DNA of 43,451 nucleotides, taken from NCBI GenBank assembly GCA_000739535.1, contig DF820465.1, positions 620,035 to 663,485 on the forward strand, in the 5' to 3' direction. The notes beneath the pieces were generated by a model. That model was not told the origin of the DNA, did no database searches, and saw only the letters and a program-made list of their open reading frames with translations. The position numbers and the translations under genes were made by a program. Position 1 is the stretch's first letter; the number at the start of each line of letters is the position of its first letter. The stretch is from Candidatus Vecturithrix granuli. Its GTDB lineage: Bacteria; Moduliflexota; Moduliflexia; Moduliflexales; Moduliflexaceae. Shown one piece after another: positions 18,314 through 43,273 of this stretch.

Positions 18314-18838
18314 ATGAGTATTGCTCTGCATACGAAAGAATTAGCGATTTTTTCGATCGATCATTTTACATTCGGCGTCGAAACCAATCAGATTCAGGAA
18401 ATTTTGACAGTGAAACTATCAGATTTTCCTGGGAAAACAGACCCTGCCTTACCATTTCGGGTGCTTCAGTATCGCCAACAATCTCTGCCAGTATTTGATT
18501 TACGGCGACGATTTTGCCTCACTCCCCTTGCTGTTGAAGTTCTTCAACAAGATTTTCCTTCTTCTCTTATTACCTTTTATGCTGCCGGCCTTCTTGCTGC
18601 TTGTTCGGTCACATCTGTCGAAGATATGATCACCGTCTCGTCGCATTCATTAAAGTCCGTACCCGCCGTTCTCACGAAAATTGCGTATAAAAATCATGTT
18701 TGGGGCTTTTATGAAATTTCAGGAAATCTTCTGCCTCTGATAGATCTTGAACGCATAATTTCCCCTCAGGATATTGATCTCTATACGGCATTTTTATCGG
18801 GATTGGAAGCTGAATCTGGCTTGAAGAGAAGATTTTAA
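18314..18838 (+). CDS. Stand-alone CheW-like domain protein
   Basis: 174 residues forming a single CheW-like fold: AIFSIDHFTFGVETNQIQEI at the start, the first-barrel motif LPVFDLRRRF and the second-barrel motif LLPLIDLERI. CheW proteins scaffold receptor-CheA arrays. Sequence is divergent and no CheA, receptor or CheY is nearby, so it may be a receptor-cluster accessory or serve a non-flagellar signalling chain. Start ATG follows a weak GAGAT site. Confidence 0.8.
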   Translation: MSIALHTKELAIFSIDHFTFGVETNQIQEILTVKLSDFPGKTDPALPFRVLQYRQQSLPVFDLRRRFCLTPLAVEVLQQDFPSSLITFYAAGLLAACSVTSVEDMITVSSHSLKSVPAVLTKIAYKNHVWGFYEISGNLLPLIDLERIISPQDIDLYTAFLSGLEAESGLKRRF

Positions 18839-18942
18839 TATTTCTTTTTTAACCTTTTTTGCCGAAAAACTTCTAACTAATGTCTTGTAAACAATAATTC
18901 TAACATTTTATCATTTAGTTTTTCAGAAGGGAGAACAGTTGT
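18839..18942. other. AT-rich leader before the first micro-lipoprotein
   Basis: AT-rich, no ORF. It precedes the 28-codon lipoprotein ORF, whose ribosome site AAGGGAG begins at 18928. No promoter boxes stand out. Confidence 0.4.
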
Positions 18943-19029
18943 ATGCAACGTTTATATATTTTCTTACAAATTCTTTGTGTTCTTTTCATAACCATATTCC
19001 TTTTGGCCGGGTGTACGCCGCTTTATTGA
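18943..19029 (+). CDS. Micro-lipoprotein, 28 residues (candidate)
   Basis: ATG preceded by AAGGGAGAACAGTTGT. The product starts MQRLYIFLQ, has a single hydrophobic stretch and ends in a lipobox LLAGC followed only by TPLY and stop. Cleavage by signal peptidase II would leave a lipidated pentapeptide, C-TPLY. It is far below usual annotation cut-offs. A second ORF of the same design lies at 20784-20855, on the other side of the XRE regulator, which argues against chance. Function unknown; entericidin-like toxic lipoproteins and signal-peptide-derived pheromones are analogies only. Confidence 0.6.
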   Translation: MQRLYIFLQILCVLFITIFLLAGCTPLY

Positions 19030-19236
19030 TTTCAGAATTAGTAAAGCGAAGAAAAGGCAGGGAGAAGAGCGGCGGATCTAATATTCGTTTTTCAATGAAA
19101 TGGATTTTGTAGGTCAAGACAAATGAGTTATTACTATTTTTTCTATAGATATTTTTAACTTTTGTTTTTTGAGGGTGTCTGATGGTCATAGAAATTGTGG
19201 TTGCAAAATAAATAGAGAAGAATGTAAAAAAAATTA
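19030..19236. other. AT-rich sequence upstream of the regulator promoter
   Basis: No convincing gene. Leads into the promoter/operator region of the XRE regulator. With the preceding micro-ORF it makes a nearly 500-base stretch without a conventional gene. Confidence 0.4.
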
Positions 19237-19265
19237 TTGACAGAAAAACGTTTATATATTACATT
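19237..19265 (+). promoter_or_regulatory. Sigma-70-type promoter of the XRE regulator
   Basis: TTGACA (19237-19242), 17-base spacer, TACATT (19260-19265) as -10 box. The -10 box overlaps the first bases of the TTAAC-ATTT-GTTAA palindrome, an arrangement expected for repression. Prediction by pattern only. Confidence 0.6.
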
Positions 19266-19277
19266 AACATTTGTTAA
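19264..19277. promoter_or_regulatory. TTAAC-N4-GTTAA operator candidate, copy 1
   Basis: TTAAC-ATTT-GTTAA, perfect, overlapping the promoter of the XRE gene. Directly after it is a second, related palindrome CTAACTAAC-AGTA-GTTAGTTG (about 19279-19300). Identical half-sites recur at 20016 and 20749. Confidence 0.65.
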
Positions 19278-19334
19278 ACTAACTAACAGTAGTTAGTTGA
19301 AATTGACAGCCTCTAGTCAGGAAAAGGTGACATT

Positions 19335-19925
19335 ATGAAATTCCATGAATTTGTCACGTCAAGACGCGCTAAATTAAATCTGAACAAAAAAGAATTGGCG
19401 AAAAAGGCCAAAATCTCTGATGCGTACATCAAGCACATTGAAGATGGCATTCGCATTCCCAAGGATATGATTATCTTGTATAATCTGGCGGATGCCCTTC
19501 AGGTTGACCGGGAATGGTTTCGCGATTTTGCCTATCTCAATCGTGATCATCAGAAAGCTGTCACCTACATTGATGAAGAAAAAGTGATCCAATCACCGAA
19601 CACAGGAAGTTCATACAATACTGCAAACAGTCTCTCTTCTAAAGAGAAAGAAATCCTGTCGTTGTTTCGAAAAATTGACGAAGAAGACCGTCAGACACTT
19701 CTCAATGTTCTGCAAAAAAATTCATTTTCTGACAGCCTTATTTTTCAGGGGAAGATGTACGATTCCCATCATGCATTATACAAGATCATGAGTGAGATTA
19801 AGGATAAAAATGAGAAATTTCTCAAAAAAATGTTGGACTACATTGTCGCAATGGTATTTATCGAAACTCACGATCAAAAGAGTCCTTTACGAGAACTCCT
19901 GGGAGATATTTTGAACATTCAATAA
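19335..19925 (+). CDS. XRE-family helix-turn-helix regulator
   Basis: 196 residues. Residues 1-65 form a Cro/CI-type HTH (LNKKELAKKAKISDAYIKHIEDGIRIP ... LYNLADALQVD). The remaining part is a charged, helical region without a recognised enzyme domain (SSKEKEILSLFRKIDEEDRQTLLNVL resembles the linker often found in XRE regulators). An AGGAAAAGGTGAC site precedes the ATG. It is flanked by repeated TTAAC-N4-GTTAA sites, so it probably represses itself and the downstream membrane/lipoprotein genes. A hairpin terminator follows it. Confidence 0.88.
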   Translation: MKFHEFVTSRRAKLNLNKKELAKKAKISDAYIKHIEDGIRIPKDMIILYNLADALQVDREWFRDFAYLNRDHQKAVTYIDEEKVIQSPNTGSSYNTANSLSSKEKEILSLFRKIDEEDRQTLLNVLQKNSFSDSLIFQGKMYDSHHALYKIMSEIKDKNEKFLKKMLDYIVAMVFIETHDQKSPLRELLGDILNIQ

Positions 19926-19938
19926 CAATCAGAGATTT

Positions 19939-19972
19939 AAAAAACCGAGTTTTGAAAAACTCGGTTTTTTTT
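19939..19972 (+). terminator. Rho-independent terminator after the XRE regulator
   Basis: AAAAACCGAGTTTT-GAAA-AACTCGGTTTTTTTT: GC-containing stem followed by an eight-T run, 14 bases after the stop codon. Same CCGAGTTT family as at 761 and 35527. Confidence 0.85.
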
Positions 19973-20003
19973 AGTGTAAATGTGATTATGAAAAAATTTT
20001 TTG

Positions 20004-20032
20004 TTGACAAAATATTTAACGTATGTTAATAT
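20004..20032 (+). promoter_or_regulatory. Promoter with operator in the spacer, upstream of the membrane-protein gene
   Basis: TTGACA (20004-20009), 17-base spacer and TAATAT (20027-20032). The palindrome TTAAC-GTAT-GTTAA (20016-20029) fills the spacer and overlaps the -10 box, so bound repressor would block polymerase. Confidence 0.65.
20016..20029. promoter_or_regulatory. TTAAC-N4-GTTAA operator candidate, copy 2
   Basis: TTAAC-GTAT-GTTAA, perfect 5+4+5 palindrome inside the promoter of the four-TM gene; same half-sites and spacing as copies 1 and 3. Confidence 0.65.
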
Positions 20033-20099
20033 ATTTTTTGTATAAAGAATAATTTTCACTCATTCATTTTGTTCAGATATTCGATAAATAGGCTTAATA

Positions 20100-20531
20100 G
20101 TGTCATATAACGTCATGCGGCATCTTTATGAAATTCTTACAAAATATGAAGCAGTTTATTTATTTTATCTGGTACCGATCGCCTATTTTATGTCGATTGT
20201 CGCCAGGTTGATCTATTATAAATTAAAATATCACCAAAAATTGTCTTATGGCGATGTGATGGCCGCAGCGACAATGCTCATTATCGGAGTAGATTATGTG
20301 AATTATTTGTACCTCCTTATTAGCGGAACCGGAAAGGTTTTGCCATTGGCGGCATTTTTGATTAAATATACCTTTGGGTTTTTATTGTGGACATGGATGT
20401 TCTGGTATAGTTATAAGGTACATATACAACGAAATTTAGTAGACCATCACATCAAGAAAGGGCACGTGATTCTCATTTGCGTCATTTCAATGCTGTTTAT
20501 TCTTCTGGTAATTGGGATTGTGGTTTCATAG
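20100..20531 (+). CDS. Small integral membrane protein, four predicted TM segments
   Basis: 143 residues from a GTG start, or 138 from the ATG at 20115; neither has a strong ribosome site. Four hydrophobic segments are visible at about 19-40 (YLFYLVPIAYFMSIVARL), 54-77, 82-105 and 123-142. I do not recognise a family. It is preceded by its own promoter containing the TTAAC-N4-GTTAA site and followed by the micro-ORF region, suggesting joint control with the XRE regulator. Inner-membrane location is expected. Confidence 0.7.
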   Translation: MSYNVMRHLYEILTKYEAVYLFYLVPIAYFMSIVARLIYYKLKYHQKLSYGDVMAAATMLIIGVDYVNYLYLLISGTGKVLPLAAFLIKYTFGFLLWTWMFWYSYKVHIQRNLVDHHIKKGHVILICVISMLFILLVIGIVVS

Positions 20532-20589
20532 TGAGGAGTGTATATTTTTTTGTTAATAAAATATATAAACGTTAATCAAAATAAAATAT

Positions 20590-20655
20590 ATGAATTACAT
20601 AGGTTTGTTTATCATATTTCTCTCTTTTATCTCTGTAGCTTGGCGATTATTTTGA
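20590..20655 (+). CDS. Hydrophobic micro-ORF, 21 residues (weak)
   Basis: ATG frame encoding MNYIGLFIIFLSFISVAWRLF, a single membrane-type helix. No Shine-Dalgarno upstream, only AT-rich sequence with GTTAAT half-sites at 20552 and 20571. It could be chance in AT-rich DNA; listed because the region has several similar small frames. Confidence 0.2.
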   Translation: MNYIGLFIIFLSFISVAWRLF

Positions 20656-20671
20656 AAGAAAAGGAGATACA

Positions 20672-20728
20672 ATGGCAGTTTTTCAGAGGATTTCGAGTTT
20701 TCGAAGGGTAGATGTGACAGGAGTGTAG
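20672..20728 (+). CDS. Micro-ORF, 18 residues, with strong ribosome site (weak)
   Basis: AAGGAG lies seven bases upstream of ATG; the product is basic (MAVFQRISSFRRVDVTGV). A leader peptide for the following lipoprotein ORF is possible. Only the ribosome site supports it. Confidence 0.25.
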   Translation: MAVFQRISSFRRVDVTGV

Positions 20729-20748
20729 ATATTTTTTTCTGCAATCAA

Positions 20749-20762
20749 TTAACTTACGTTAA
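20749..20762. promoter_or_regulatory. TTAAC-N4-GTTAA operator candidate, copy 3
   Basis: TTAAC-TTAC-GTTAA, perfect, only nine bases before the AAGGAG ribosome site of the 23-residue lipoprotein ORF. Same half-sites and spacing as at 19264 and 20016. Confidence 0.6.
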
Positions 20763-20783
20763 TTACTCATAAGGAGAATAACC

Positions 20784-20855
20784 ATGTTATACTATTGGAT
20801 GATTGTTGTCTTATCGGTTATAATCATGCTGTTAACAGGATGTACTCCGTATTAA
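20784..20855 (+). CDS. Micro-lipoprotein, 23 residues (candidate)
   Basis: AAGGAGAATAACC precedes the ATG, a near-ideal ribosome site. The product runs MLYYWMIVVLSVIIM, then lipobox LLTGC, then only TPY and stop, so the mature form would be a lipidated tetrapeptide. It shares the design and the CTP..Y tail with the ORF at 18943-19029. An operator candidate lies just upstream. Not explained by a truncated larger gene: the frame after the stop is not coding. Function unknown. Confidence 0.65.
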   Translation: MLYYWMIVVLSVIIMLLTGCTPY

Positions 20856-21007
20856 AAACATACGTGTAACAAAACGATAACGATTTACTGCTACAGCATC
20901 AATTGTCAACGTAAGAGGGGTATGAACAACATGCCCCATGTTCGAAAAAGGTGAAGCGTCATAAAAATTGTTAGAGCATAATCTTACGCTGATCGTTGAA
21001 AAGAGAT
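20856..21007. other. Leader of the ATPase gene
   Basis: No gene. A small hairpin-prone segment (GGGGTATG...CATGCCCC, about 20917-20937) lies here; a nine-codon ATG frame at about 20922 is too short to judge. No TTAAC-N4-GTTAA site. Confidence 0.4.
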
Positions 21008-23335
21008 ATGAAACTCATAAAAACAACTCAATTATTTTCATTGTGCAAGATGCTTGTACTGATGTTTTTCCTCTTAAATTTGAGTAGCGCGCTATGGGGG
21101 TTTGTGTACTCTGATCCTCAGCCTGGCCGCCTTTTCCCATCAACATCATCTCAAGCTGATGACTCCGTTAAAGGGATGCTGACGCATCTCAAACATGTGC
21201 TTTCATACCAATTTCTTCCTTTGGCAGAAGGTGATGAATCAACCCCGATCTCCTTTGAACAAGATACCGACCAGGGCCCCCAGACCACCGATCATTCGTT
21301 GTTGATTCAGATCGCTCGTTCCTATAATACTTTTGAACAGAGGAATCTGACACCTTCATCTCCTGGCAAGATCTTAACCAGATTCCCAGGAATCACAAAA
21401 CAGATTCAACTTCTTTTGATTGGCGGGGTGTTGCTGACAATCGGCACCATTTTTATTCCTACGTTCTTACCTCAACTCCATCAACATCCCGCAAAAATTT
21501 TTCGTGCGTTTCACCGATCACATTCTCAGCATTCAGCGGAAATCCGGCAAAAAAAACGCCGGAGGTCGTATGCCTCTCTGAGGCTCACGGATTCTGCAGT
21601 AGCCGAAAGGCTGCTTCGAACGAAAATCTCTACGCAGCAACAAGAGCGTATTTCCGATACTGTTGACGCAGAAAAAGACTGTTTGGAAGAAATTTGGGAA
21701 TTGGAAGAATATGATATGAATCGGAATAATCATGAAATGATCTCTTCACCTTCTGTGTCCCAGAAACCTTTTGATGCTCCCGAAAACACGATACGCACAT
21801 TTTTTCAACAAAGCGGATTTGAATTTGTCTCTCAGAACAATAATCATCAGGTACTTCATGCGACACATATTCCTTATAATCGTTATGGTGCCATTCCTCT
21901 TTTTATCATGACAGATACTGTGCTCGATGCTTCAGCCATTCAACAAATTTGCGCTGCGATAGCTCCTCGAAATGATTCGAACACCCTCCAACTAGCGTTT
22001 ATCATTGTTGATACGATCCCCTCTTCTGACGCATATACGTCCATTTATACATGTAAATCGCAGACTAATATGCTGTTGATTCCTATCGCAATTCAGTTGA
22101 TAAACAAAGCCTTACGACAAAGAACCCCCGCCCACATCTTGGAAAAATTGCTCAGTACCGCTTTAAAAGGGAACAATCTGTATGATACAAATACACCTGT
22201 GGAAAATCCCTTAGATTTTTTTGGACGTGAAGATATGATCAATACCTTACTTGATGCCGTGAGCCGTTTACAACATATCGGATTATTCGGACTTCGAAAA
22301 ATTGGAAAAACCTCAATGATCTGGCAGGTTCGAGAAAAGCTTGCGCGTCATATTGTCGCCTACATTGATCTACAACACATTTCCCAGGAGCTTTCCTCGG
22401 TCTATCAAGCCATTCTCGCAGAGTGTCTTCGAGAAGCGTCGTATAAATATCCCGAAGTGATCCTACCAGATTTCAGCCTTTTGGCGCAAGAAGTCGCGAG
22501 CGATCCAGGCGCACAACTTGGACAGATGCTTGTCAGCCTGTGGGAATGTCTGAAACCCTGCTGCCATGATCTGAAAATCATTATCTTGTTTGATGAAGCT
22601 GAACACCTGATTCCGGCAGTGCGAGATTCCTTACCCGGATTTTCAGGATTTCATCAATTGGTTGGAACCATTCGAGGTATTTCCCAACAATATGGTTTTC
22701 TCGTGTCGCTAATGGTGTCTTCGAGTCCGGATATTTCACGCATCGATACCTGGAAAGGACAAAATAATCCGGGGTTTCAGTATTATAAAGAAGTGTTTGT
22801 CTCAACGCTTTCTGAAGAGGAATGTAATCGTATGATTACGACACTTGGCATTCAGGTCGGTTTAAGATATACTGAAGAGTCATTATCCAGAATTTATTAT
22901 GAAACCGGCGGGCATCCTTATGTCACACGGCAATTGTGCAGCCTCATTGTAAAAAAATTACTGAATAATCAGGCTGCTCATGCCCGGCATACTTCAAAGA
23001 TGAAAGAAAATTCCGACCTATGCGATACGTCCTTTCTTGTTGAAGTGAAAGATGTTGAATATGCGGTCTCTGAGTATCTGGAATACAAGCGTGATTATCT
23101 TGAAAGTATTTGGCAGCGACTTCCGCAAACAGAACAAGAAATTCTCCTGATTATCATAAAAAACGAGAGCTGTGCGCTCGATGATCTGATTGCCAGGCAT
23201 CACAGCCATCAGATCAAACGAGAACGCAGAAAGGTGATATCAACATTAATAGAAAATGAAATCATCGAGAAATGTGAAAACAAATATTCGATTAGAATGG
23301 GCTTGTTTGCACGATACCTTTTGACAACCAACTAA
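21008..23335 (+). CDS. Membrane-anchored STAND/AAA-like ATPase
   Basis: About 775 residues. An N-terminal hydrophobic segment (about 12-37) and a second at about 130-155 (IQLLLIGGVLLTIGTIFIP) enclose a presumably periplasmic part, leaving the rest in the cytoplasm. Next comes a globular domain with AFIIVDTIPSSDAYTS and NMLLIPIAIQLINKAL, then NPLDFFGREDMI, Walker A GLRKIGKTS at about 430 and Walker B IIILFDEAEHLIP at about 530. The C terminus looks like a winged helix. This architecture matches signalling/conflict NTPases of the STAND type. A TTG 12 bases upstream is an alternative start. Partner and trigger unknown; its location beside the XRE/lipoprotein genes suggests a common system. Confidence 0.8.
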   Translation: MKLIKTTQLFSLCKMLVLMFFLLNLSSALWGFVYSDPQPGRLFPSTSSQADDSVKGMLTHLKHVLSYQFLPLAEGDESTPISFEQDTDQGPQTTDHSLLIQIARSYNTFEQRNLTPSSPGKILTRFPGITKQIQLLLIGGVLLTIGTIFIPTFLPQLHQHPAKIFRAFHRSHSQHSAEIRQKKRRRSYASLRLTDSAVAERLLRTKISTQQQERISDTVDAEKDCLEEIWELEEYDMNRNNHEMISSPSVSQKPFDAPENTIRTFFQQSGFEFVSQNNNHQVLHATHIPYNRYGAIPLFIMTDTVLDASAIQQICAAIAPRNDSNTLQLAFIIVDTIPSSDAYTSIYTCKSQTNMLLIPIAIQLINKALRQRTPAHILEKLLSTALKGNNLYDTNTPVENPLDFFGREDMINTLLDAVSRLQHIGLFGLRKIGKTSMIWQVREKLARHIVAYIDLQHISQELSSVYQAILAECLREASYKYPEVILPDFSLLAQEVASDPGAQLGQMLVSLWECLKPCCHDLKIIILFDEAEHLIPAVRDSLPGFSGFHQLVGTIRGISQQYGFLVSLMVSSSPDISRIDTWKGQNNPGFQYYKEVFVSTLSEEECNRMITTLGIQVGLRYTEESLSRIYYETGGHPYVTRQLCSLIVKKLLNNQAAHARHTSKMKENSDLCDTSFLVEVKDVEYAVSEYLEYKRDYLESIWQRLPQTEQEILLIIIKNESCALDDLIARHHSHQIKRERRKVISTLIENEIIEKCENKYSIRMGLFARYLLTTN

Positions 23336-24975: not shown

Positions 24976-25473
24976 ATGCAAACAATTTGGGCACCCTGGA
25001 GAATAACATATATTTTGGGCGAGAAAGAGCAAGGCTGTTTTTTGTGTCAAAAAGCAAGGCAGGTTGAGCATGATGAGGAGAATTTTGTGTTATGCCGCAA
25101 AACCCATGCGTTTGTCTTGATGAATGTGTACCCGTATAACAATGGTCATCTCATGATCGCACCCTATGCCCATGTTTCCAGTCTAACAGAATTACATCAC
25201 GATCAATTGGAAGATATGTTCCGATTAGCCCAACTTTGTGAATCTGTGTTAACGCTGGTCATGCAGCCTGAAGGCTTCAATATTGGCATAAACCTGGGAA
25301 AAGTTGCCGGGGCTGGTGTTGAGGATCATCTGCACCTTCATATTGTGCCTAGATGGAATGGGGATACCAATTATATGACCACGATCGCAGATACCCGCAT
25401 CATTCCTCAACAACTCGAAGAGACCTGTGAATTATTGCGATCGGGTTTTCTTTTGGAACAAAAAGAGCGATGA
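24976..25473 (+). CDS. HIT-family nucleotide hydrolase/transferase
   Basis: 165 residues. The histidine triad is visible as DHLHLHIVPRW; an upstream CxxC pair (CFLC) and NNGHLMIAPYAHVSSL are typical of the Ap4A-phosphorylase-like HIT branch. These act on dinucleoside polyphosphates or adenosine-phosphoramidates. The stop codon overlaps the lptC start (ATGATGA), so the genes are coupled. Confidence 0.88.
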   Translation: MQTIWAPWRITYILGEKEQGCFLCQKARQVEHDEENFVLCRKTHAFVLMNVYPYNNGHLMIAPYAHVSSLTELHHDQLEDMFRLAQLCESVLTLVMQPEGFNIGINLGKVAGAGVEDHLHLHIVPRWNGDTNYMTTIADTRIIPQQLEETCELLRSGFLLEQKER

Positions 25474-26108
25474 TGAATACGATGAATATAGCAAGAATTA
25501 AGCGGCTCCTTCTGATTATGATAGGAGGGATGACCACCTTAATGGTTTATTATATCTGGGCCTACAATCAGGAAAATCAAGGCGTGAAAATGAAGCCTCT
25601 TCTCCCGGAGAAGCTCGCATCCGATCCCGTGGTACCGGACGTCGTCGTCAACGATGTGGACCTGACTGAAATGTCTGTAGAGCGAATCTTATGGACCTTA
25701 CACGCCAAAGAAGCCCGGGTGTATAGTTCCCTGAAAGAAACTCGACTCAAGGCTGTTGAAGTACAATTTTTTGATGAATACGGGGAGAAAAGTTTATTTT
25801 TAACGAGTGACCGAGGAATGAAAGATGATAAAACTGGGAATATTACCGCTTCTGGCAATGTCGTGGTCATATCGTTACAAAAAGAGGCGACCTTGAAAAC
25901 GAATGAGTTAATTTATGATGCCAATCAAAAAATGATCCGGACGGATGAACAGGAGCATGTGATTATTGAACAAGGCGATATTATTACCAGTGGATACGGA
26001 TTAGAATCGGATCTGAGTTTGTCAAAACCGCGAATTTTACGAGATGTCACGACATCTTTCGCTGTTCAACAGGAAGTCAAACAAGGAGGTGACAGTACGC
26101 AGGAATGA
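25470..26108 (+). CDS. lptC: LPS export protein LptC-like
   Basis: 212 residues. One N-terminal membrane helix (RLLLIMIGGMTTLMVYYIWAY) followed by a beta-rich periplasmic LptC/OstA-like domain (MSVERILWTLHAKEARVYS; KTGNITASGNVVV; ITSGYGLESDLSL). LptC joins the inner-membrane LptBFG transporter to LptA. It overlaps the HIT gene by four bases and is followed by lptA and lptB. Low conservation is normal for this family; context makes the call firm. Confidence 0.88.
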   Translation: MMNTMNIARIKRLLLIMIGGMTTLMVYYIWAYNQENQGVKMKPLLPEKLASDPVVPDVVVNDVDLTEMSVERILWTLHAKEARVYSSLKETRLKAVEVQFFDEYGEKSLFLTSDRGMKDDKTGNITASGNVVVISLQKEATLKTNELIYDANQKMIRTDEQEHVIIEQGDIITSGYGLESDLSLSKPRILRDVTTSFAVQQEVKQGGDSTQE

Positions 26109-26144
26109 ACCACTGGCAATGGTCTTTCTGTGATCTGTCTGCTT

Positions 26145-27293
26145 ATGCTTATGAGAAGAGGGGAAAAAAATTTTCACGTATATACTGCGTGGATCTGCTG
26201 TGTTATGATGTCTCTCCTGATCCTGATTGGCATTGCCAATTCCTCTGAAGCGCAAACTTCAGCCAAATCTGGCTCTCAAACCCCATCGGTCATGTCACAA
26301 CAGGGAGGGGAGGGGGTCATTACGGGTGATGGCTTTCAGATGGATCTTGACAAAAAAGTGGTCACGTATTTTGGCAATGTCAAAGTTGTTCAAGGGGAAA
26401 GTACGCTGTTTTGCGATAAATTAGATGCGTTTTACGAAGAGTTTGGAAAATGGAAACGCATTGTGACCACCGGAAATGTGCGATTAGTGGATGGAACATT
26501 CACGGCTACTGGTGAGGAAGGAATCTTTCATCCCGAAGAACAAAAAGTCGAAATTAATACCCATGCAAAAGTTTGGCAAGAGAATAATACCATTACCGCC
26601 CATCAAATTGTCGCCTACATTGCGCAGGATGTGGTTGAGGGGTATGGCAGTGAGGCGACTGAACGAGTCATTATGACAGTCTATTCAGGAGAAAGTATGA
26701 GTTTGCCGGGAACAACGCCTACACCCCGTGAAAGTCCCCGGGCTGAAGAGGAAAGCAAGTCGCCAATCGTGATTATTTCCGATACCTTAAAATTTGAAAA
26801 CCTGAAGCAACTTGCCAGATTTACGGGAAATGTTATTGCCACGCAAGATAAAGATGAAATCAAAGCCGATGAAATGCTCGTGTATCTGACCAAAACAGAG
26901 CAAAATCAGAACGATGTGGAGCGACTTGAATTATACCGCAATGTGAATATCACGCATGAGCAGTATTTAATCCTCGGGGATACCGGCGTGTATCACAAAG
27001 TAGAACAATACGCTGTGGTCACAGGCACAAAACAAGAATTTGCCCGGATTGTAGATACAACCGATAATATCACCCGGATTCAAGCCTATGGCATCCGTTA
27101 CAATTTAGCGAATAATCTGGTTGAATCTATCCCGCTGGAAGGGTCGCGGGTCGAAACAAAATTTGAAACAGAGCAAGGCGGATCCTTGTTGGTGCCGGAA
27201 AAGCCAGTCTCAACGCCAACCCCTGAGGCGACTCCGCAAGTGAATCGGGAAAAAATGCCGTCTGCCACAGTGTATCCTGGCAAAAAGAAATGA
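26145..27293 (+). CDS. lptA: LptA/OstA-family LPS periplasmic bridge protein
   Basis: About 382 residues, roughly twice the length of E. coli LptA. A signal-type segment (ICCVMMSLLILIGIA) precedes two OstA-like repeats: one around GFQMDLDKKVVTYFGNVKV ... NVRLVDGTFTATGEEG, the other around SDTLKFENLKQLARFTGNVI ... MLVYL. The C terminus is a low-complexity Pro/Thr tail. LptA forms the bridge that carries LPS across the periplasm. The start is unclear (GTG 26130, ATG 26145 or 26151), none with a good ribosome site. No lptD here. Confidence 0.85.
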   Translation: MLMRRGEKNFHVYTAWICCVMMSLLILIGIANSSEAQTSAKSGSQTPSVMSQQGGEGVITGDGFQMDLDKKVVTYFGNVKVVQGESTLFCDKLDAFYEEFGKWKRIVTTGNVRLVDGTFTATGEEGIFHPEEQKVEINTHAKVWQENNTITAHQIVAYIAQDVVEGYGSEATERVIMTVYSGESMSLPGTTPTPRESPRAEEESKSPIVIISDTLKFENLKQLARFTGNVIATQDKDEIKADEMLVYLTKTEQNQNDVERLELYRNVNITHEQYLILGDTGVYHKVEQYAVVTGTKQEFARIVDTTDNITRIQAYGIRYNLANNLVESIPLEGSRVETKFETEQGGSLLVPEKPVSTPTPEATPQVNREKMPSATVYPGKKK

Positions 27294-38462: not shown

Positions 38463-38861
38463 TCACACAGCCGTATTTTTCAGGTTTTGCCAGTTCTCGC
38501 GATACGCTTGTTGAAGCTCTTTTGTCGTTCTGATGACATCCTCAGTCGCATCTCTGCACACAGCAGGCTCAAGATCTGTATCAAACAGATACATCTCAGT
38601 CCAACTCAACCCTTCTTTTTCGCTGCGTACAATTAAGGGCAAATCCATGGCTTGCAGCGTCAAACTGTCCCAGGCCACTAAATAGACAACATGTTCTCGC
38701 TCTGACTCCGGGTCAATTTCCTTAATTCGTCCCTGCCAGCCGCTGATATCATTACCAAAATCAGGATCAGCCGTGCCAGCTTTTACTTTCACATTGTCGT
38801 GCAGATGAAAATTGATCATTTTCAACCGATGAGATTGAGAATCTTGTGCTTGTGTTGGCAT
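38463..38861 (-). CDS. Hypothetical protein with SH3/KOW-like N-terminal segment
   Basis: 132 residues as drawn; the better start may be the Met at 38819 (MINFHLHDNVKVKAG). The segment VKVKAGTADPDFGNDISGWQGRI resembles small SH3-like 'gating' motifs in hypothetical proteins of cyanobacteria and others. The rest is acidic with ELQQAYRENW near the end. No recognised enzyme motif. Role unknown. Confidence 0.6.
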   Translation of the reverse strand: MPTQAQDSQSHRLKMINFHLHDNVKVKAGTADPDFGNDISGWQGRIKEIDPESEREHVVYLVAWDSLTLQAMDLPLIVRSEKEGLSWTEMYLFDTDLEPAVCRDATEDVIRTTKELQQAYRENWQNLKNTAV

Positions 38862-38879
38862 AATATCTGAAAACTATGA

Positions 38880-38982
38880 ACGTGGATTTTCCGATACTTC
38901 CTTTGGGAATCATCCGGTCCGAAAAATCACTTTCAAGATCAACCCGTGTTTGTATTTTGGTGTGAATCTGTATATTTTCCAT
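38880..38982 (-). pseudogene. N-terminal fragment of a DUF4926-like small protein
   Basis: Minus-strand frame beginning MENIQIHTKIQTRVDLESDF, matching by memory the beginning of DUF4926-type small proteins up to the Gly-Thr-Ile-Gly turn (here KGSIGK); after that the sequence loses resemblance and runs into the 5' part of the next gene. Probably a truncated remnant. The family match is from memory, so confidence is low. Confidence 0.35.
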
Positions 38983-39052
38983 GATGTTACCGATTTTTAG
39001 CTCCTACGAAGCTCAAAAGGGGAACTGTCGCTGGTATCGCTATCAGGGACAT

Positions 39053-39346
39053 TCAGGTTGATTGCCGGGTTTGGCGCTGAGCTTCCATGTAGGCTCTGAG
39101 CAGCGTGTTAATGAGAGCTTGATAATGCTGGCCTTGCGCCTGAAACCAGTCCAGGACATCCTGATCAATCTGTAAGGTCACTCGCGAAGTTGGCCGAATA
39201 GTTCGCAGACCGCGCCGTACCACCGCCCGTTCAAACATTTCCGGAGTAATTTCAGGACAATCTGAAAAATCAATGTCATGATCTTCCATTGCATCCACCC
39301 GCGCCCAATCAGTAAGCGATGTTTTCGAAATAGGTTCGTTCTTCAT
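39053..39346 (-). CDS. BrnA-type antitoxin, apparently without its toxin
   Basis: 97 residues. C-terminal ribbon-helix-helix-like end VTLQIDQDVLDWFQAQGQHYQALINTLLRAYM is typical of BrnA antitoxins; the acidic N-terminal part carries SDCPEITPEMFERA. BrnT toxin genes normally lie just upstream of brnA; here the upstream 280 bases hold no frame on this strand. So it is orphan or the toxin has been lost. It could still act as an autorepressor. Confidence 0.8.
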   Translation of the reverse strand: MKNEPISKTSLTDWARVDAMEDHDIDFSDCPEITPEMFERAVVRRGLRTIRPTSRVTLQIDQDVLDWFQAQGQHYQALINTLLRAYMEAQRQTRQST

Positions 39347-39627
39347 AACCTGAGAACAATGTATTTGGCATGGATCTATTCATAGTCTGTTCTAAAAACA
39401 TGATACGACTTCAAACAAAATCTGTCAAATACTTCTTCACATAAAAACAGCACCGCCCGTACATATCATATTTGTCGTTTTTCACAAACGATCCGCAAGA
39501 ACCAAAATTTTCATTGCCGTTGCAGAAGTACTTGACTTTTCTGAAACCGCCAGAATACACGTCCTGATTAGAAGGTAAGGCGAACTATCATCAAATAACC
39601 TGTTGTGGGAAGAAGAGGAGTGAAACT
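39347..39627. other. Intergenic region before the restriction-modification locus
   Basis: No gene. TTGACT at 39532-39537 is a possible -35 box for the methylase gene, with AATACA about 16 bases downstream, weak. An AGAAGAGGAG ribosome site lies just before the GTG at 39628. Confidence 0.4.
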
Positions 39628-41703
39628 GTGGATGTATTAACAGAGGTTCTCAAGGATTCCGATTATGCACTGAGTGTGTTTGATCAGGCGGAGATTGAGG
39701 AGTTGAAAGCGCGGGTGATGCTGCGCGACGTGCGGGGTGTGCAGAAGCCGTATGTTTCTTGCTTGATTCGAGAAAAGGAGATTCTGCTGAAACCCGAGGA
39801 AATCGTGCGCCAATTGTATCTTGCCAAATTGCTGCGGCAGTACAAGTACCCCAAAGACCGGATTACCGTGGAACATCCGGTCAGCTTCGGACGTGAGAAA
39901 AAGTCGGCCGATATTGTGATCTTTGATAAGGATCGTCCGACCGTTGAATATATCATCGTCGAACTTAAAAAACCGAAACTCCAGGAGGGCAAAAATCAAC
40001 TGCGCTCCTACTGCAACGCCACCGGCGCGCCGATCGGCGTCTGGACCAACGGCAGCCAGATTTCCCATTATCACCGCAAAGACCCGAATTACTTTGAAGA
40101 TATTACGGACATTCCCAACGCGACCCAGACCCTGGCGGATATTCTGCAAGAACGCTTTACCCTGAAAGACCTGATTATGCGGGATAAAATTCCTAATGAA
40201 GGCAAAACCCTCAAGGCGATCATCACGGAGATGGAGGATGAAGTCTTAGCCAATGCCGGTGTGGATGTGTTCGAGGAGGTCTTTAAGCTGATTTTCACGA
40301 AACTCTACGATGAATTGAAAAGCCAGAAGGATAAAACCATCATCAATTACTTTCTCGAAGGTCAGCACTTCCCGCGGGTGGAAGAAACTCCTGAGAGCTA
40401 TATCGCGCTCAAAGGGAGCGATTTCGAAGCGATCAAACAGGCGGTGGCGCGCATTGACGACAGCCGCTTCCGCGTGCTGGAATTCAGAAACACGGGACAA
40501 TCGGAAAGCGAATTGGCACACAAAATCCAGAAACTTTTTGACGAAGCGAAAACCAAATGGGGTGGGGTGTTTCCGAAGGACAGCACCATCCAACTCAGCC
40601 CCTCGCACCTCTCCATTTGCGTATCCAGTTTGCAGGACATCAAGCTCTTCAATTCCAATTTGCAGATCATTGATGAAGCCTTCGAATATCTGGTCAATAA
40701 ATCGGCCAAAGGGGAAAAAGGACAGTATTTCACCCCGCGCCATGTGATTGATATGTGCGTGAAAATGCTGAATCCACACAAAGGAGAATACATGATCGAC
40801 ACGGCCGCCGGGTCTTGCGGGTTTCCGGTGCATACGATTTTTTACATGACCGGCCATCTGTTCTCCAATGACGAAATCCCGGAAGAGGAAAAAGAGGATG
40901 TGCTCAAGGTGTTTGGGATCGATTTCGATGAAAAAGTCGTGCGTGTGGCGCGAACCCTGAACTTGATCGCCGGAGACGGAGAAACCAATGTGCTTTATCT
41001 GAACACCCTGGATTATGAACGCTGGAACGAGCGCACTCAGGATCGTTCCTGGCTCAACACCTACGGCAAAGGCTTGAACCGTTTGGAAGGTCTGAAAAAA
41101 GAGCCGAACTCCAACAAGGAATTTCTGTTTGACATTCTGATGGCCAATCCCCCGTTTGCCGGCGATATCAAGGAATCGCGCATTATCCACAAGTATGAAT
41201 TAGGGTACAACCAGCAGAACAAGCCGCAGTCCAAAGTCGGGCGCGACATTTTGTTTATCGAGCGCAATCTGGATTTTCTGAAACCTGGCGGCCGCATGGC
41301 AATCGTGCTGCCCCAGGGACGTTTTAACAACACCTCCGACAAACAGATCCGTGAATTTATCGCGGAACGGGCGCGGATTTTAGCGGTAGTGGGTTTGCAT
41401 GTCAATACCTTTAAACCGCATACCGGCACGAAAACCAGCGTGCTGTTTCTGCAAAAGTGGGATGACAAGAAGTGTCCGAAGGTCGAGGATTACCCGATCT
41501 TCTTTGCGGTCTCCGACAAACCGGGCAAGGATAATTCCGGCGAGTACATCTTTGTCAAAAACGGCGATGGCAAGCCCAAATTAGATCGCAACGGCCATTT
41601 TATTGTGGATCACGACCTGCACAATCACGGCGGCGAATTGCCGGACGGCATTGCCGAGGCGTTTCAGGAATTCGCCAAAAAGGAACAGTTCTCTTTTTTC
41701 TGA
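39628..41703 (+). CDS. hsdM: Type I restriction-modification methylase with N-terminal nuclease-like domain
   Basis: 691 residues. Residues 50-160 form an HSDR_N-like PD-(D/E)XK domain with Asp95 (SADIVIFD) and Glu112-x-Lys114 (VELKKPK) in place. From about 300 on there is an N6-adenine methylase of the HsdM type: motif I DTAAGSCGFPVH at about 391 and motif IV ANPPFAGD at about 507, then GGRMAIVLPQGRFNN. Normal HsdM lacks the nuclease part, which is usually on HsdR; the fusion is a known variant. No separate hsdR is in the window. Start is GTG at 39628 with GAAGAGGAG upstream. Confidence 0.9.
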   Translation: MDVLTEVLKDSDYALSVFDQAEIEELKARVMLRDVRGVQKPYVSCLIREKEILLKPEEIVRQLYLAKLLRQYKYPKDRITVEHPVSFGREKKSADIVIFDKDRPTVEYIIVELKKPKLQEGKNQLRSYCNATGAPIGVWTNGSQISHYHRKDPNYFEDITDIPNATQTLADILQERFTLKDLIMRDKIPNEGKTLKAIITEMEDEVLANAGVDVFEEVFKLIFTKLYDELKSQKDKTIINYFLEGQHFPRVEETPESYIALKGSDFEAIKQAVARIDDSRFRVLEFRNTGQSESELAHKIQKLFDEAKTKWGGVFPKDSTIQLSPSHLSICVSSLQDIKLFNSNLQIIDEAFEYLVNKSAKGEKGQYFTPRHVIDMCVKMLNPHKGEYMIDTAAGSCGFPVHTIFYMTGHLFSNDEIPEEEKEDVLKVFGIDFDEKVVRVARTLNLIAGDGETNVLYLNTLDYERWNERTQDRSWLNTYGKGLNRLEGLKKEPNSNKEFLFDILMANPPFAGDIKESRIIHKYELGYNQQNKPQSKVGRDILFIERNLDFLKPGGRMAIVLPQGRFNNTSDKQIREFIAERARILAVVGLHVNTFKPHTGTKTSVLFLQKWDDKKCPKVEDYPIFFAVSDKPGKDNSGEYIFVKNGDGKPKLDRNGHFIVDHDLHNHGGELPDGIAEAFQEFAKKEQFSFF

Positions 41704-41735
41704 AGCGCCCGTTCGATGAAGCCAGATATCAGGCT

Positions 41736-43273
41736 TTGTTGAGCGGGCTGACAATCTCAATAGTTCATTATAACAACTTAGAAAAATATAAGGATTTCAG
41801 ATTCGATGCTGAATTCTTCAAGCCTGAATATTTAGCCCTTGAAACTATCCTCCAGCGCAGCAATTATACGTTGTTTGGCGATGTAGTGAAAGAGATCCGG
41901 TGTGGACCTTTCGGTTCTACTTTATTAGCGGATACTTATTTAAAAGATGGCGTCATCGTTGCAAGACCATTCAATATTAAACAATTTACATTAGAGCGTG
42001 ACAATCGGTTTATATCAACCAAAGGGATTGTATCGACAAGAATCTTAGATTCTATGTGTATTGACACGTCAGATTATGGTCAAATTTTCAAGAACCATTT
42101 TGTGCAAAATCAGACGAATTGACCATGAGAATCTGACCATAACCTTGCTGGTCAATACATCTATGAAGAAGGCGATATATTTTTCTCTCGCGTTGGTGAT
42201 ATTCGCTGTGGAATAGTTCCACAGATAGCTTCTAAATTAACGATTAGCCCCAATATTATAGCCGTAAAGCCTGACAAAAAACATTGAACCCTTATTATGC
42301 GACCATCTTTTTCAACTCAAGATTTGGTCTTCCGCAGATCGAAAGAGGTTTGAAGGTTGTTGCTCAGCCTACTATTCAGACCGATTTAGTCGCTGAGCTA
42401 AAAATCGTGTTATTAAGTGCTTCTTTTCAACGATTGATAGAGCATCTTTTTTCTATGTTTCTCGAATTAGATGAAAAAGCAAAGATATTGTATACTAATG
42501 CTGAGCAATTTCTCCTCTCCAAACTTGGACTTGCCGACTGGCAGCCGACGCAGCAGACCACCTTTGTCAGGAACTTCTCAGAGTTCCTACATGCCGACCG
42601 CCTTGACGCCGAATATTTTCAGCCGAAGTATGAACATATCATCAACACGATTAAAAACAAAACCCACTGTGTGATCAAGGATATTCAGGAATCTAACCGG
42701 CGAGGAGTTCAACCTACATACATTGAAGATGAACCGATAAAAGTTGTCACAAGCAAACATATAGGCTCTGAAGCCATAGAGTATGATCAACTTGACCATG
42801 CGACAGAGGAAGAATGGCGCAAAAACCCTCTTGCTCACATTAAACTGATGGATATTTTGATTTATACGACAGGGGCCAATATTGGTAGAACCCAGTGTTT
42901 TTTAGAACATGAGCGCGCTATCGCAAGTAATCATGTCAATATCTTGCGCGTGAGAGAACTCAACCCAGTTTATACGGCGCTGTTTCTCAATTCCTTGGTC
43001 GGCCAGATGCAGGTACAGAGAATGGTGAGTGGTTCTGCCCAGGTTGAACTCTACCCTTCTAATATCGCTCAGTTTGTCATCTGGAATGCGCCCCGGGAAA
43101 TCCAGGCAGAAATTGCCCGCCTGGTTCATACCTCACACACAGCCCGGAAGCACTCAAAACTCCTGCTCGACATCGCCAAACGCGGCGTGGAACTGGCGAT
43201 TGAGCAGGATGAACAGCGCGCTGAAGCCTGGATACAGAGCCAGATCCGGACACTTGACATTGAGATAGACTAG
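41736..43273 (+). pseudogene. hsdS: HsdS specificity subunit, disrupted (two in-frame stops and a frameshift)
   Basis: The reading frame begins (TTG 41736, or earlier, since DEARYQALLSGL continues upstream in frame) with FRFDAEFFKPEYLALE. It meets TGA at 42120 and 42126, then continues in the same frame as EEGDIFFSRVGDIRCGIVP before ending at TGA 42267-42290 region after KPDKKH. Continuing coding sequence, from about 42284, is in another frame (LNPYYATIFFNSRFGL and onward): one A missing in the A6 tract at 42276-42281 restores it. The second target-recognition half (AEYFQPKYEHI to IQSQI) is intact to 43273. The stops lie in a small palindromic insert (42072-42144). Truly broken or assembly error cannot be told; see findings. 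Confidence 0.85.
42072..42144. repeat. 73 bp palindromic insert in hsdS
   Basis: Terminal arms GATTATGGTCAAATT (42072-42086) and AATCTGACCATAACC (42130-42144) are inverted repeats with two mismatches; TTATGGTCA/TGACCATAA is perfect. It carries both premature TGA codons and breaks the expected run from ...TKGIVSTRILDS to AGQYIYEEGDIFF. No other copy seen in the window. Confidence 0.55.

Follow-up and report, generated by a model that had tools for sequence, protein, structure and literature searches.

Several described systems resemble one or another part of the locus considered here. The prolipoproteins of enterococcal pheromones consist mostly of a lipoprotein signal peptide and are encoded beside a regulator, and the colicin lysis or bacteriocin release lipoproteins (Lysis_col; PF02402), with about 28 mature residues, are short lipoproteins with a role in the envelope. 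LptM (YifL; PF13627) is a very small outer-membrane lipoprotein (mature form about 5.9 kDa, tri-acylated), the lipidated N-terminus of which is the working part (PMC10567701). The STAND/MNS-type AAA+ proteins (archaeal ATPase_2, SSO1545, and PABY2304; Avs3; RdrA) have a P-loop ATPase, a C-terminal winged-helix region, and an alpha/beta domain in front, and the DicA- and CI-434-like XRE repressors have an HTH_3 domain and palindromic operators within promoters. Likenesses to all of these were found in one stretch of 43,451 nucleotides of the KSB3 bacterium Candidatus Vecturithrix granuli (GCA_000739535.1; contig DF820465.1; G000:C19:620035-663485; genome of 8.38 Mb), which is referred to below as the window. 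It contains a module of two micro-lipoprotein genes and genes for an XRE-family regulator, a protein with four transmembrane (TM) segments, and a STAND/AAA+-type ATPase. The XRE, four-TM, micro-lipoprotein, and ATPase genes very probably belong to one regulon, the first for KSB3, and the module is tentatively read as the core of an XRE regulon that is specific to KSB3 and serves envelope-linked signalling. Candidate division KSB3 is a diderm phylum with large genomes, a GC content near 50%, LPS (lipopolysaccharide) synthesis genes, and many signalling genes, and is a cause of bulking in anaerobic reactors (PMC4312070). The comparison involved the genome of the window (G000), a sister genome of the same family (G001), and two genomes of the other KSB3 family (G002 and G003). 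The five genes, all on the plus strand as an earlier note on this DNA had claimed, follow each other between a CheW gene (18314-18838) and a YaiI/DUF188 gene (from 23429):

18943 to 19029, plus strand: micro-lipoprotein 1, 28 amino acids (aa), lipobox LAGC, predicted mature peptide CTPLY, sequence MQRLYIFLQILCVLFITIFLLAGCTPLY.
19335 to 19925, plus strand: XRE-family regulator, 196 aa (HTH_3, E 4.8e-8, 33.4 bits versus a cut-off of 23).
20100 to 20531, plus strand: four-TM protein of 143 aa if read from GTG; the start may lie further downstream.
20784 to 20855, plus strand: micro-lipoprotein 2, 23 aa, lipobox LTGC, predicted mature peptide CTPY, sequence MLYYWMIVVLSVIIMLLTGCTPY.
20996 to 23335, plus strand: putative membrane-anchored STAND/AAA+-type ATPase, 779 aa from TTG, with ATG at 21008 as a possible start.

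Joint regulation of these genes is indicated by the palindrome YTAACNNNNGTTAR, which was found four times in the window (19264, 19283, 20016, and 20749), all within 19264-20762, compared with 0.07 matches expected in shuffled sequences. Sites of this kind recur in the KSB3 relatives, bearing out the shared operators proposed in the earlier note. The exact form TTAACN4GTTAA was present three times in the region 18839-20995, within 1.5 kb, a number reached in none of 3000 shuffles, and occurred only six times in the whole G000 genome, versus 17 times for the reversed-pattern control. Similarly, the G001 genome (3.4 Mb) contained the exact form twice, both times inside the module, where a third site had one mismatch. 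The sites at G000:C1 and C13 had no support from neighbouring module genes, and other TTAACN4GTTAA sites of G002 and G003, many of them intragenic or chance-like, were excluded from the regulon count. The candidate regulatory elements of the window are as follows:

19237 to 19265, plus strand: XRE promoter-like site TTGACA-17-TACATT (10 of 12 positions matching; promoter-like matches as a class were not above chance).
19264 to 19277, plus strand: operator O1, TTAACATTTGTTAA, overlapping the -10 element of the XRE promoter.
19283 to 19296, plus strand: variant operator O1b, CTAACAGTAGTTAG, the core of the palindrome AACTAACTA-ACAG-TAGTTAGTT.
19939 to 19974, plus strand: intrinsic terminator after the XRE gene (stem of 12-13 bp, T run).
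20004 to 20032, plus strand: four-TM promoter TTGACA-17-TAATAT, with O2 inside the 17-bp spacer.
20016 to 20029, plus strand: operator O2, TTAACGTATGTTAA, between the -35 and -10 elements of the four-TM promoter.
20749 to 20762, plus strand: operator O3, TTAACTTACGTTAA, 21 bp before micro-lipoprotein 2, with an identical site before micro-lipoprotein 2 of G001.

Since these operators overlap a -10 element or sit between -35 and -10 elements, repression is the most likely mode of control, and the XRE protein is the putative binder of the TTAAC-N4-GTTAA sites and the probable repressor. A variant form like O1b (CTAACATATGTTAG) precedes the micro-lipoprotein gene in G002 and G003. No operator precedes micro-lipoprotein 1 in either genome that has it (G000 and G001); this gene may be controlled by other means.

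All four KSB3 genomes have XRE, operator, four-TM, operator, and micro-lipoprotein in this order, in two chromosomal contexts. Indeed, G001 keeps the full order (micro-lipoprotein 1, XRE, four-TM, micro-lipoprotein 2, ATPase, DUF188, PlsC), and G002 and G003 retain the XRE, operator, four-TM, operator, and micro-lipoprotein part at a different chromosomal place. The ATPase gene adjoins the module only in the window's family, about 140 bp after micro-lipoprotein 2 in both G000 and G001; given this short gap, in which no clear terminator was seen, its co-transcription with micro-lipoprotein 2 from the O3 promoter is likely. The earlier note had considered the ATPase as the weakest link of the set, no palindrome preceding it, which is true in the window; however, an operator does precede the ATPase gene in G002 and G003 (TTGACATCTTGATTGACGTATGTTAATTA and TTGACATCTTGATTTACGTATGTTAATTA, respectively; one mismatch to the operator), where this gene is located elsewhere. 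The unlinked promoter has the form TTGACA-N6-TT(T/G)ACGTATGTTAA, the gap between its -35 element and the operator being equal to that of the four-TM promoters. Only four such composite sites with at most one mismatch occur in G003, the expectation being about 1e-4 per given 150 bp. The promoter and the gene are at the end of contig C12 and the start of contig C31 in G002, and these contigs are probably adjacent, as the sequence matches that of G003. An ATPase gene that is unlinked and yet has an operator-bearing promoter supports its link to the regulon. Hence, the conserved co-occurrence and order to be looked for according to the earlier note was found in all four genomes, the ATPase being included through its own operator where unlinked, and of the situation held to disprove the grouping, homologues lying apart with unshared regulation, only the separation of the ATPase was encountered. 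Immediately before the XRE module of G003, as in G002, there is a transfer RNA (tRNA) gene (L029:6542-6614), which may mark an insertion site; no integrase was noticed there.

Candidate further members of the regulon share a signal-transduction theme, their membership being based on sites alone. In G000, the sites TTAACTAACGTTAA and TTAACTAACGTTAT, operator-like and in tandem, stand before genes for two proteins, one of 119 aa and an NB-ARC-TPR protein of 843 aa (L033:14444-17466; G000:C20:64443-67465), which have a common N-terminal motif SxxVGDQTQ; the 119-aa protein weakly matched a candidate family of PADLOC. In G002 and G003, operator sites precede the gene for a secreted DUF4384-PEGA protein (L079 and L088; operator-bearing promoter) and a response regulator-PAS-GGDEF gene.

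The micro-lipoproteins are lipobox peptides of 23-28 aa with a G-C-T-P-(L)Y tail, and occurred in the module of all four KSB3 genomes. G001 carries both of them, namely a homologue of micro-lipoprotein 1 in equivalent position (L028:5286; MQRMFTAIRSIVYSLALLVLLVGCTPLY) and one of micro-lipoprotein 2 (MRYYWMFIAVAIILTLLSGCTPY), and G003 (MRTTYLLLLICLILILSGCTPYVPW) and G002 (MRARYLLLLVGLILILSGCTPYVPW) carry one each, just after the four-TM gene. The peptides have the make-up of type II signal peptides, with a positively charged start, a hydrophobic core, and lipoboxes (LAGC, LTGC, LVGC, and LSGC across the four genomes) that agree with the pattern [LVI][ASTVI][GAS]C, though the N-terminal charge of micro-lipoprotein 2 of the window is weak (MLYYW), and the open reading frames (ORFs) of G001, G002, and G003 have good ribosome-binding sites. 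Lipidation of the cysteine and cleavage of the signal peptide, both predicted, would leave mature peptides of 4-7 residues (CTPY, CTPLY, and CTPYVPW). Three pairwise comparisons joined together gave a dN of 0.32 versus a dS of 0.95, rates that are rough in view of the short sequences. Moreover, the codon changes in the G-C-T-P-(L)-Y(-VPW) tail were seven synonymous and no nonsynonymous ones, which indicates selection on the lipobox cysteine and the residues after it. The candidate micro-ORFs are, by these comparisons, real genes under purifying selection; spurious ORFs are ruled out by conservation in four genomes together with the synonymous-only changes of the tail. A Pfam scan gave as best match of micro-lipoprotein 1 a non-significant one to Lysis_col (E 0.7; 10.2 bits versus a cut-off of 27) and none of the micro-ORFs to PF13627 at E 1, very short queries lowering the sensitivity. 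Further GCTPY pattern matches elsewhere in the four genomes look like chance, one of them falling within a CRISPR-like array. A CRISPR-like repeat array (repeat GTGAAAACCCTAATAAAACCCTGGAAGGGATTAAAAC) was noted in G000 (L070; G000:C4 near 37000).

The XRE protein of the window is 81% identical to that of G001 and 47-53% identical to those of G002 and G003; the XRE gene of the nearest named relative, the KSB3 genome DOLJORAL78_50_49, is 81% identical, which places the host of the window in KSB3. The C-terminal part of the XRE protein, about 110 residues long, is conserved and without family match, and a domain scan recognised no peptide-binding domain of the TPR type. A search of genome contigs with the XRE alignment, limited in its reach to relatives that have two short motifs in common, gave hits in KSB3 and in the G002 genome alone. 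The four-TM family was present in each of the four KSB3 genomes, was absent from 381 others, had no Pfam or NCBIfam match, and had no relatives among the viral sequences searched. Within the searches made, close relatives of the XRE protein, the four-TM family, and the ATPase were thus restricted to KSB3. Paralogues of the four-TM protein lie by genes for a response regulator-PAS histidine kinase and CheA in G000 (L033:9672-10091; G000:C20) and by one for a response regulator-PAS-sigma54 protein in G001 (L034:8029-8448; G001:C19), which hints at a signalling role of this family. A second XRE gene of G000 (L035:3766-4902; G000:C20:31765-32901) is divergent from a gene for a small membrane protein of 155 aa, forming a pair that parallels the module; the palindrome ATAACTATATAGTTAT separates the two genes, and a tRNA-like gene follows closely downstream. 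Homology of this 155-aa protein to the four-TM family was unsupported (hhalign probability 3.5%).

The ATPase was represented by a single orthologue in each of the four KSB3 genomes and, among 385 genomes, only there (E 1e-20). Its Pfam matches to AAA_16, ATPase_2, and nSTAND6 are all below the curated cut-offs; nevertheless, it displays the features of a STAND NTPase, namely a P-loop with Walker A (GLRKIGKT(S)) and Walker B (ILFDEAE), a winged helix, and a GxP-type motif (ETGGHP), the three motifs being conserved in the four orthologues. Two hydrophobic segments (residues 13-31 and 139-157), the second followed by a basic stretch, suggest an N-in topology with about 105 periplasmic residues between two TM segments, as many as in the earlier note, and a cytosolic P-loop part; in the G001 orthologue, only the second segment passes the same threshold. 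In G002 and G003, the protein lacks the periplasmic loop and has an N-terminal TPR fusion. Residues 263-779, modelled from four sequences (predicted local distance difference test, pLDDT, 69.7; predicted template modelling score, pTM, 0.43), begin with a part (residues 263-390) predicted as alpha-beta-beta-beta-alpha-beta-alpha-beta, an element order as in restriction-endonuclease-like folds. The best fold matches were ORC subunits, archaeal ORC2, and the archaeal MNS ATPases PABY2304 and SSO1545, besides Avs3 (Z 11.4) and RdrA (Z 11.7); as the root mean square deviations are large over multi-domain alignments, these matches indicate the ATPase class only. The PDB contained no sequence relatives.

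As to the setting, the AT-rich island described in the earlier note between CheW and the downstream genes was recovered, with a GC fraction of 0.33-0.35 at 19-21 kb versus 0.41-0.51 across most of the surrounding window. The YaiI/DUF188 gene after the ATPase is followed by a PlsC-type acyltransferase gene, and genes similar to LptC and LptA are present 2 kb past the module (25470-27290). CheW was ruled out as a module member, being not conserved in G001, and Rfam matched tRNAs only. In the region 38466-43270 of the window, a BrnA-type antitoxin was noted along with a type I restriction-modification locus, in which the methylase has an HSDR_N domain and HsdS is apparently divided between two frames. 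As regards the phage-defence islands to be looked for nearby according to the earlier note, this locus, about 16 kb from the module, represents the nearest defence genes.

Under the envelope-linked reading favoured here, the XRE protein, itself encoded behind operators, would bind TTAAC-N4-GTTAA and most likely repress the module, until a signal releases it and the four-TM protein, the prolipoprotein, and the ATPase are expressed. The four-TM protein would be the small inner-membrane protein of the derepressed set, and the prolipoprotein, nearly all signal peptide, would be processed by the lipoprotein maturation enzymes to a lipopeptide only 4-7 residues long. This lipopeptide would presumably be delivered to the outer membrane, as a threonine occupies position +2 and there is no aspartate retention signal. 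Together with the four-TM protein, it may report or modify the envelope state, and the ATPase, with two membrane spans and a periplasmic loop in the window's family and TPRs instead in the other, may be the switch that reads this state. The rare and clustered operators, the conserved module order, the operator before the unlinked ATPase, the purifying selection on the micro-ORFs, the families seen in KSB3 only, the signalling genes beside four-TM paralogues and further operator sites, and the diderm envelope with LptC/LptA-like genes close by speak for this reading. A narrower version, in which the lipidated tetrapeptide is a dedicated gene-encoded envelope signal read by a membrane-spanning STAND ATPase, is rather improbable; if true, it would concern the smallest lipoprotein in the role of a regulated signalling ligand, one that has a repressor and a membrane partner to itself. 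Several observations weigh against envelope-linked signalling. The loop is missing in G002 and G003, so that sensing as proposed here cannot hold for all four genomes; no clear operator lies upstream of the primary XRE gene in these two; the model of the four-TM protein is of low confidence (pLDDT 66.7) and gave no convincing fold match; the CheW and LptC/LptA neighbours are not kept in G001; the sample consists of four KSB3 genomes of one phylum, two of which share one genus; and the NB-ARC-TPR gene, a candidate member of the G000 regulon, fits an immune function better.

The latter function is the first alternative: the ATPase, with its putative restriction-endonuclease-like domain, would sense a threat, the four-TM protein and the lipopeptide would damage the envelope, and the XRE protein would silence the set. 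A domain order as in Avs3 and the fold matches to Avs3 and RdrA speak for it, although these are among many AAA+ proteins and the best ones are ORC and archaeal MNS ATPases. The XRE control and the second operator target of G000, with its weak PADLOC candidate match, point in the same direction. However, neither the ATPase (at E 0.01) nor the four-TM protein matched PADLOC, and the ATPase is single-copy in all four genomes instead of patchy. Further, the four-sequence alignment showed no conserved ExK/DxK-type catalytic motif in the predicted third strand of residues 263-390, modelled only as part of residues 263-779; the window DNA had no match in a plasmid collection, nor the XRE protein in a phage collection; and the defence genes are distant. 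An immune role is thus possible, unlikely on this evidence and less likely than envelope-linked signalling. Of the earlier proposal of an undescribed envelope-monitoring or immune module, the coherent, conserved, and apparently undescribed module stands, an immune function being the less likely part.

The remaining alternatives are less likely. The lipopeptide might be a cofactor of an outer-membrane machine, a minimal counterpart of LptM, made on demand in response to disturbed LPS transport or lipoprotein traffic; this is consistent with the way in which the tri-acylated N-terminus of LptM, itself a small lipoprotein, mimics LPS in LptDE (PMC10567701), and with the nearby LptC/LptA-like genes. 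Yet, it appears improbable, as those neighbours are not conserved in G001 and Lysis_col was the only match of the Pfam scan, through which alone homology to LptM was examined. Even less credible is a peptide-signal system in which, as for the sex pheromones of enterococci, the signal-peptide fragment is the product and is read by the XRE or four-TM protein. Genes that code almost solely for a lipoprotein signal peptide, adjacent to an XRE regulator, would suit it, but selection keeps the CTP(L)Y tail, whereas the end of the signal peptide, of which the last 7-8 residues are conserved in the enterococcal type, differs between genomes (VIIMLLTG, IILTLLSG, and ILILSG, the latter in G002/G003), and the XRE protein has no recognised peptide-binding domain of the TPR type. 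Just as doubtful is a small hydrophobic toxin under an antitoxin-like XRE repressor, with the four-TM protein and the ATPase as immunity or execution factors, for although a short hydrophobic ORF lies behind a repressor and peptide 1 weakly resembles colicin lysis lipoproteins, a pore-forming peptide would not need an exactly conserved lipidation site and four-residue tail, and the genes occur across the whole phylum sample, with one copy at each module position, and are stable within each family.

Compared with the known systems, each part of the module differs in its own way. The XRE protein scored 38 bits with the DicA model versus a cut-off of 101, has a conserved C-terminal part of about 110 residues without assigned family, and is not phage-borne in the collections searched. 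The ATPase departs from the STAND/MNS-type proteins in its scores below the curated Pfam cut-offs, in its N-terminal part (a pair of TM segments around a periplasmic loop, or TPRs), in the lack of a recognised catalytic nuclease motif, and in a family seen only in KSB3. As for the micro-lipoproteins, colicin genes are absent here and the best Pfam match to colicin lysis lipoproteins is non-significant; in contrast to the enterococcal pheromones, selection acts on the lipidated tail and the host is diderm; and unlike LptM, only 4-7 residues are left after cleavage, PF13627 is not matched, and the neighbours are others. In the open PMC literature, no description was found of such extremely small lipoprotein genes or of XRE-STAND sets. 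Prolipoproteins of 23-28 residues are far under the usual gene-calling limits, and the operator-controlled micro-lipoproteins of these four genomes illustrate that regulon and synteny, not length, can reveal such genes. They also make it possible to test directly if a gene product reduced to a lipidated tetrapeptide can have a function.

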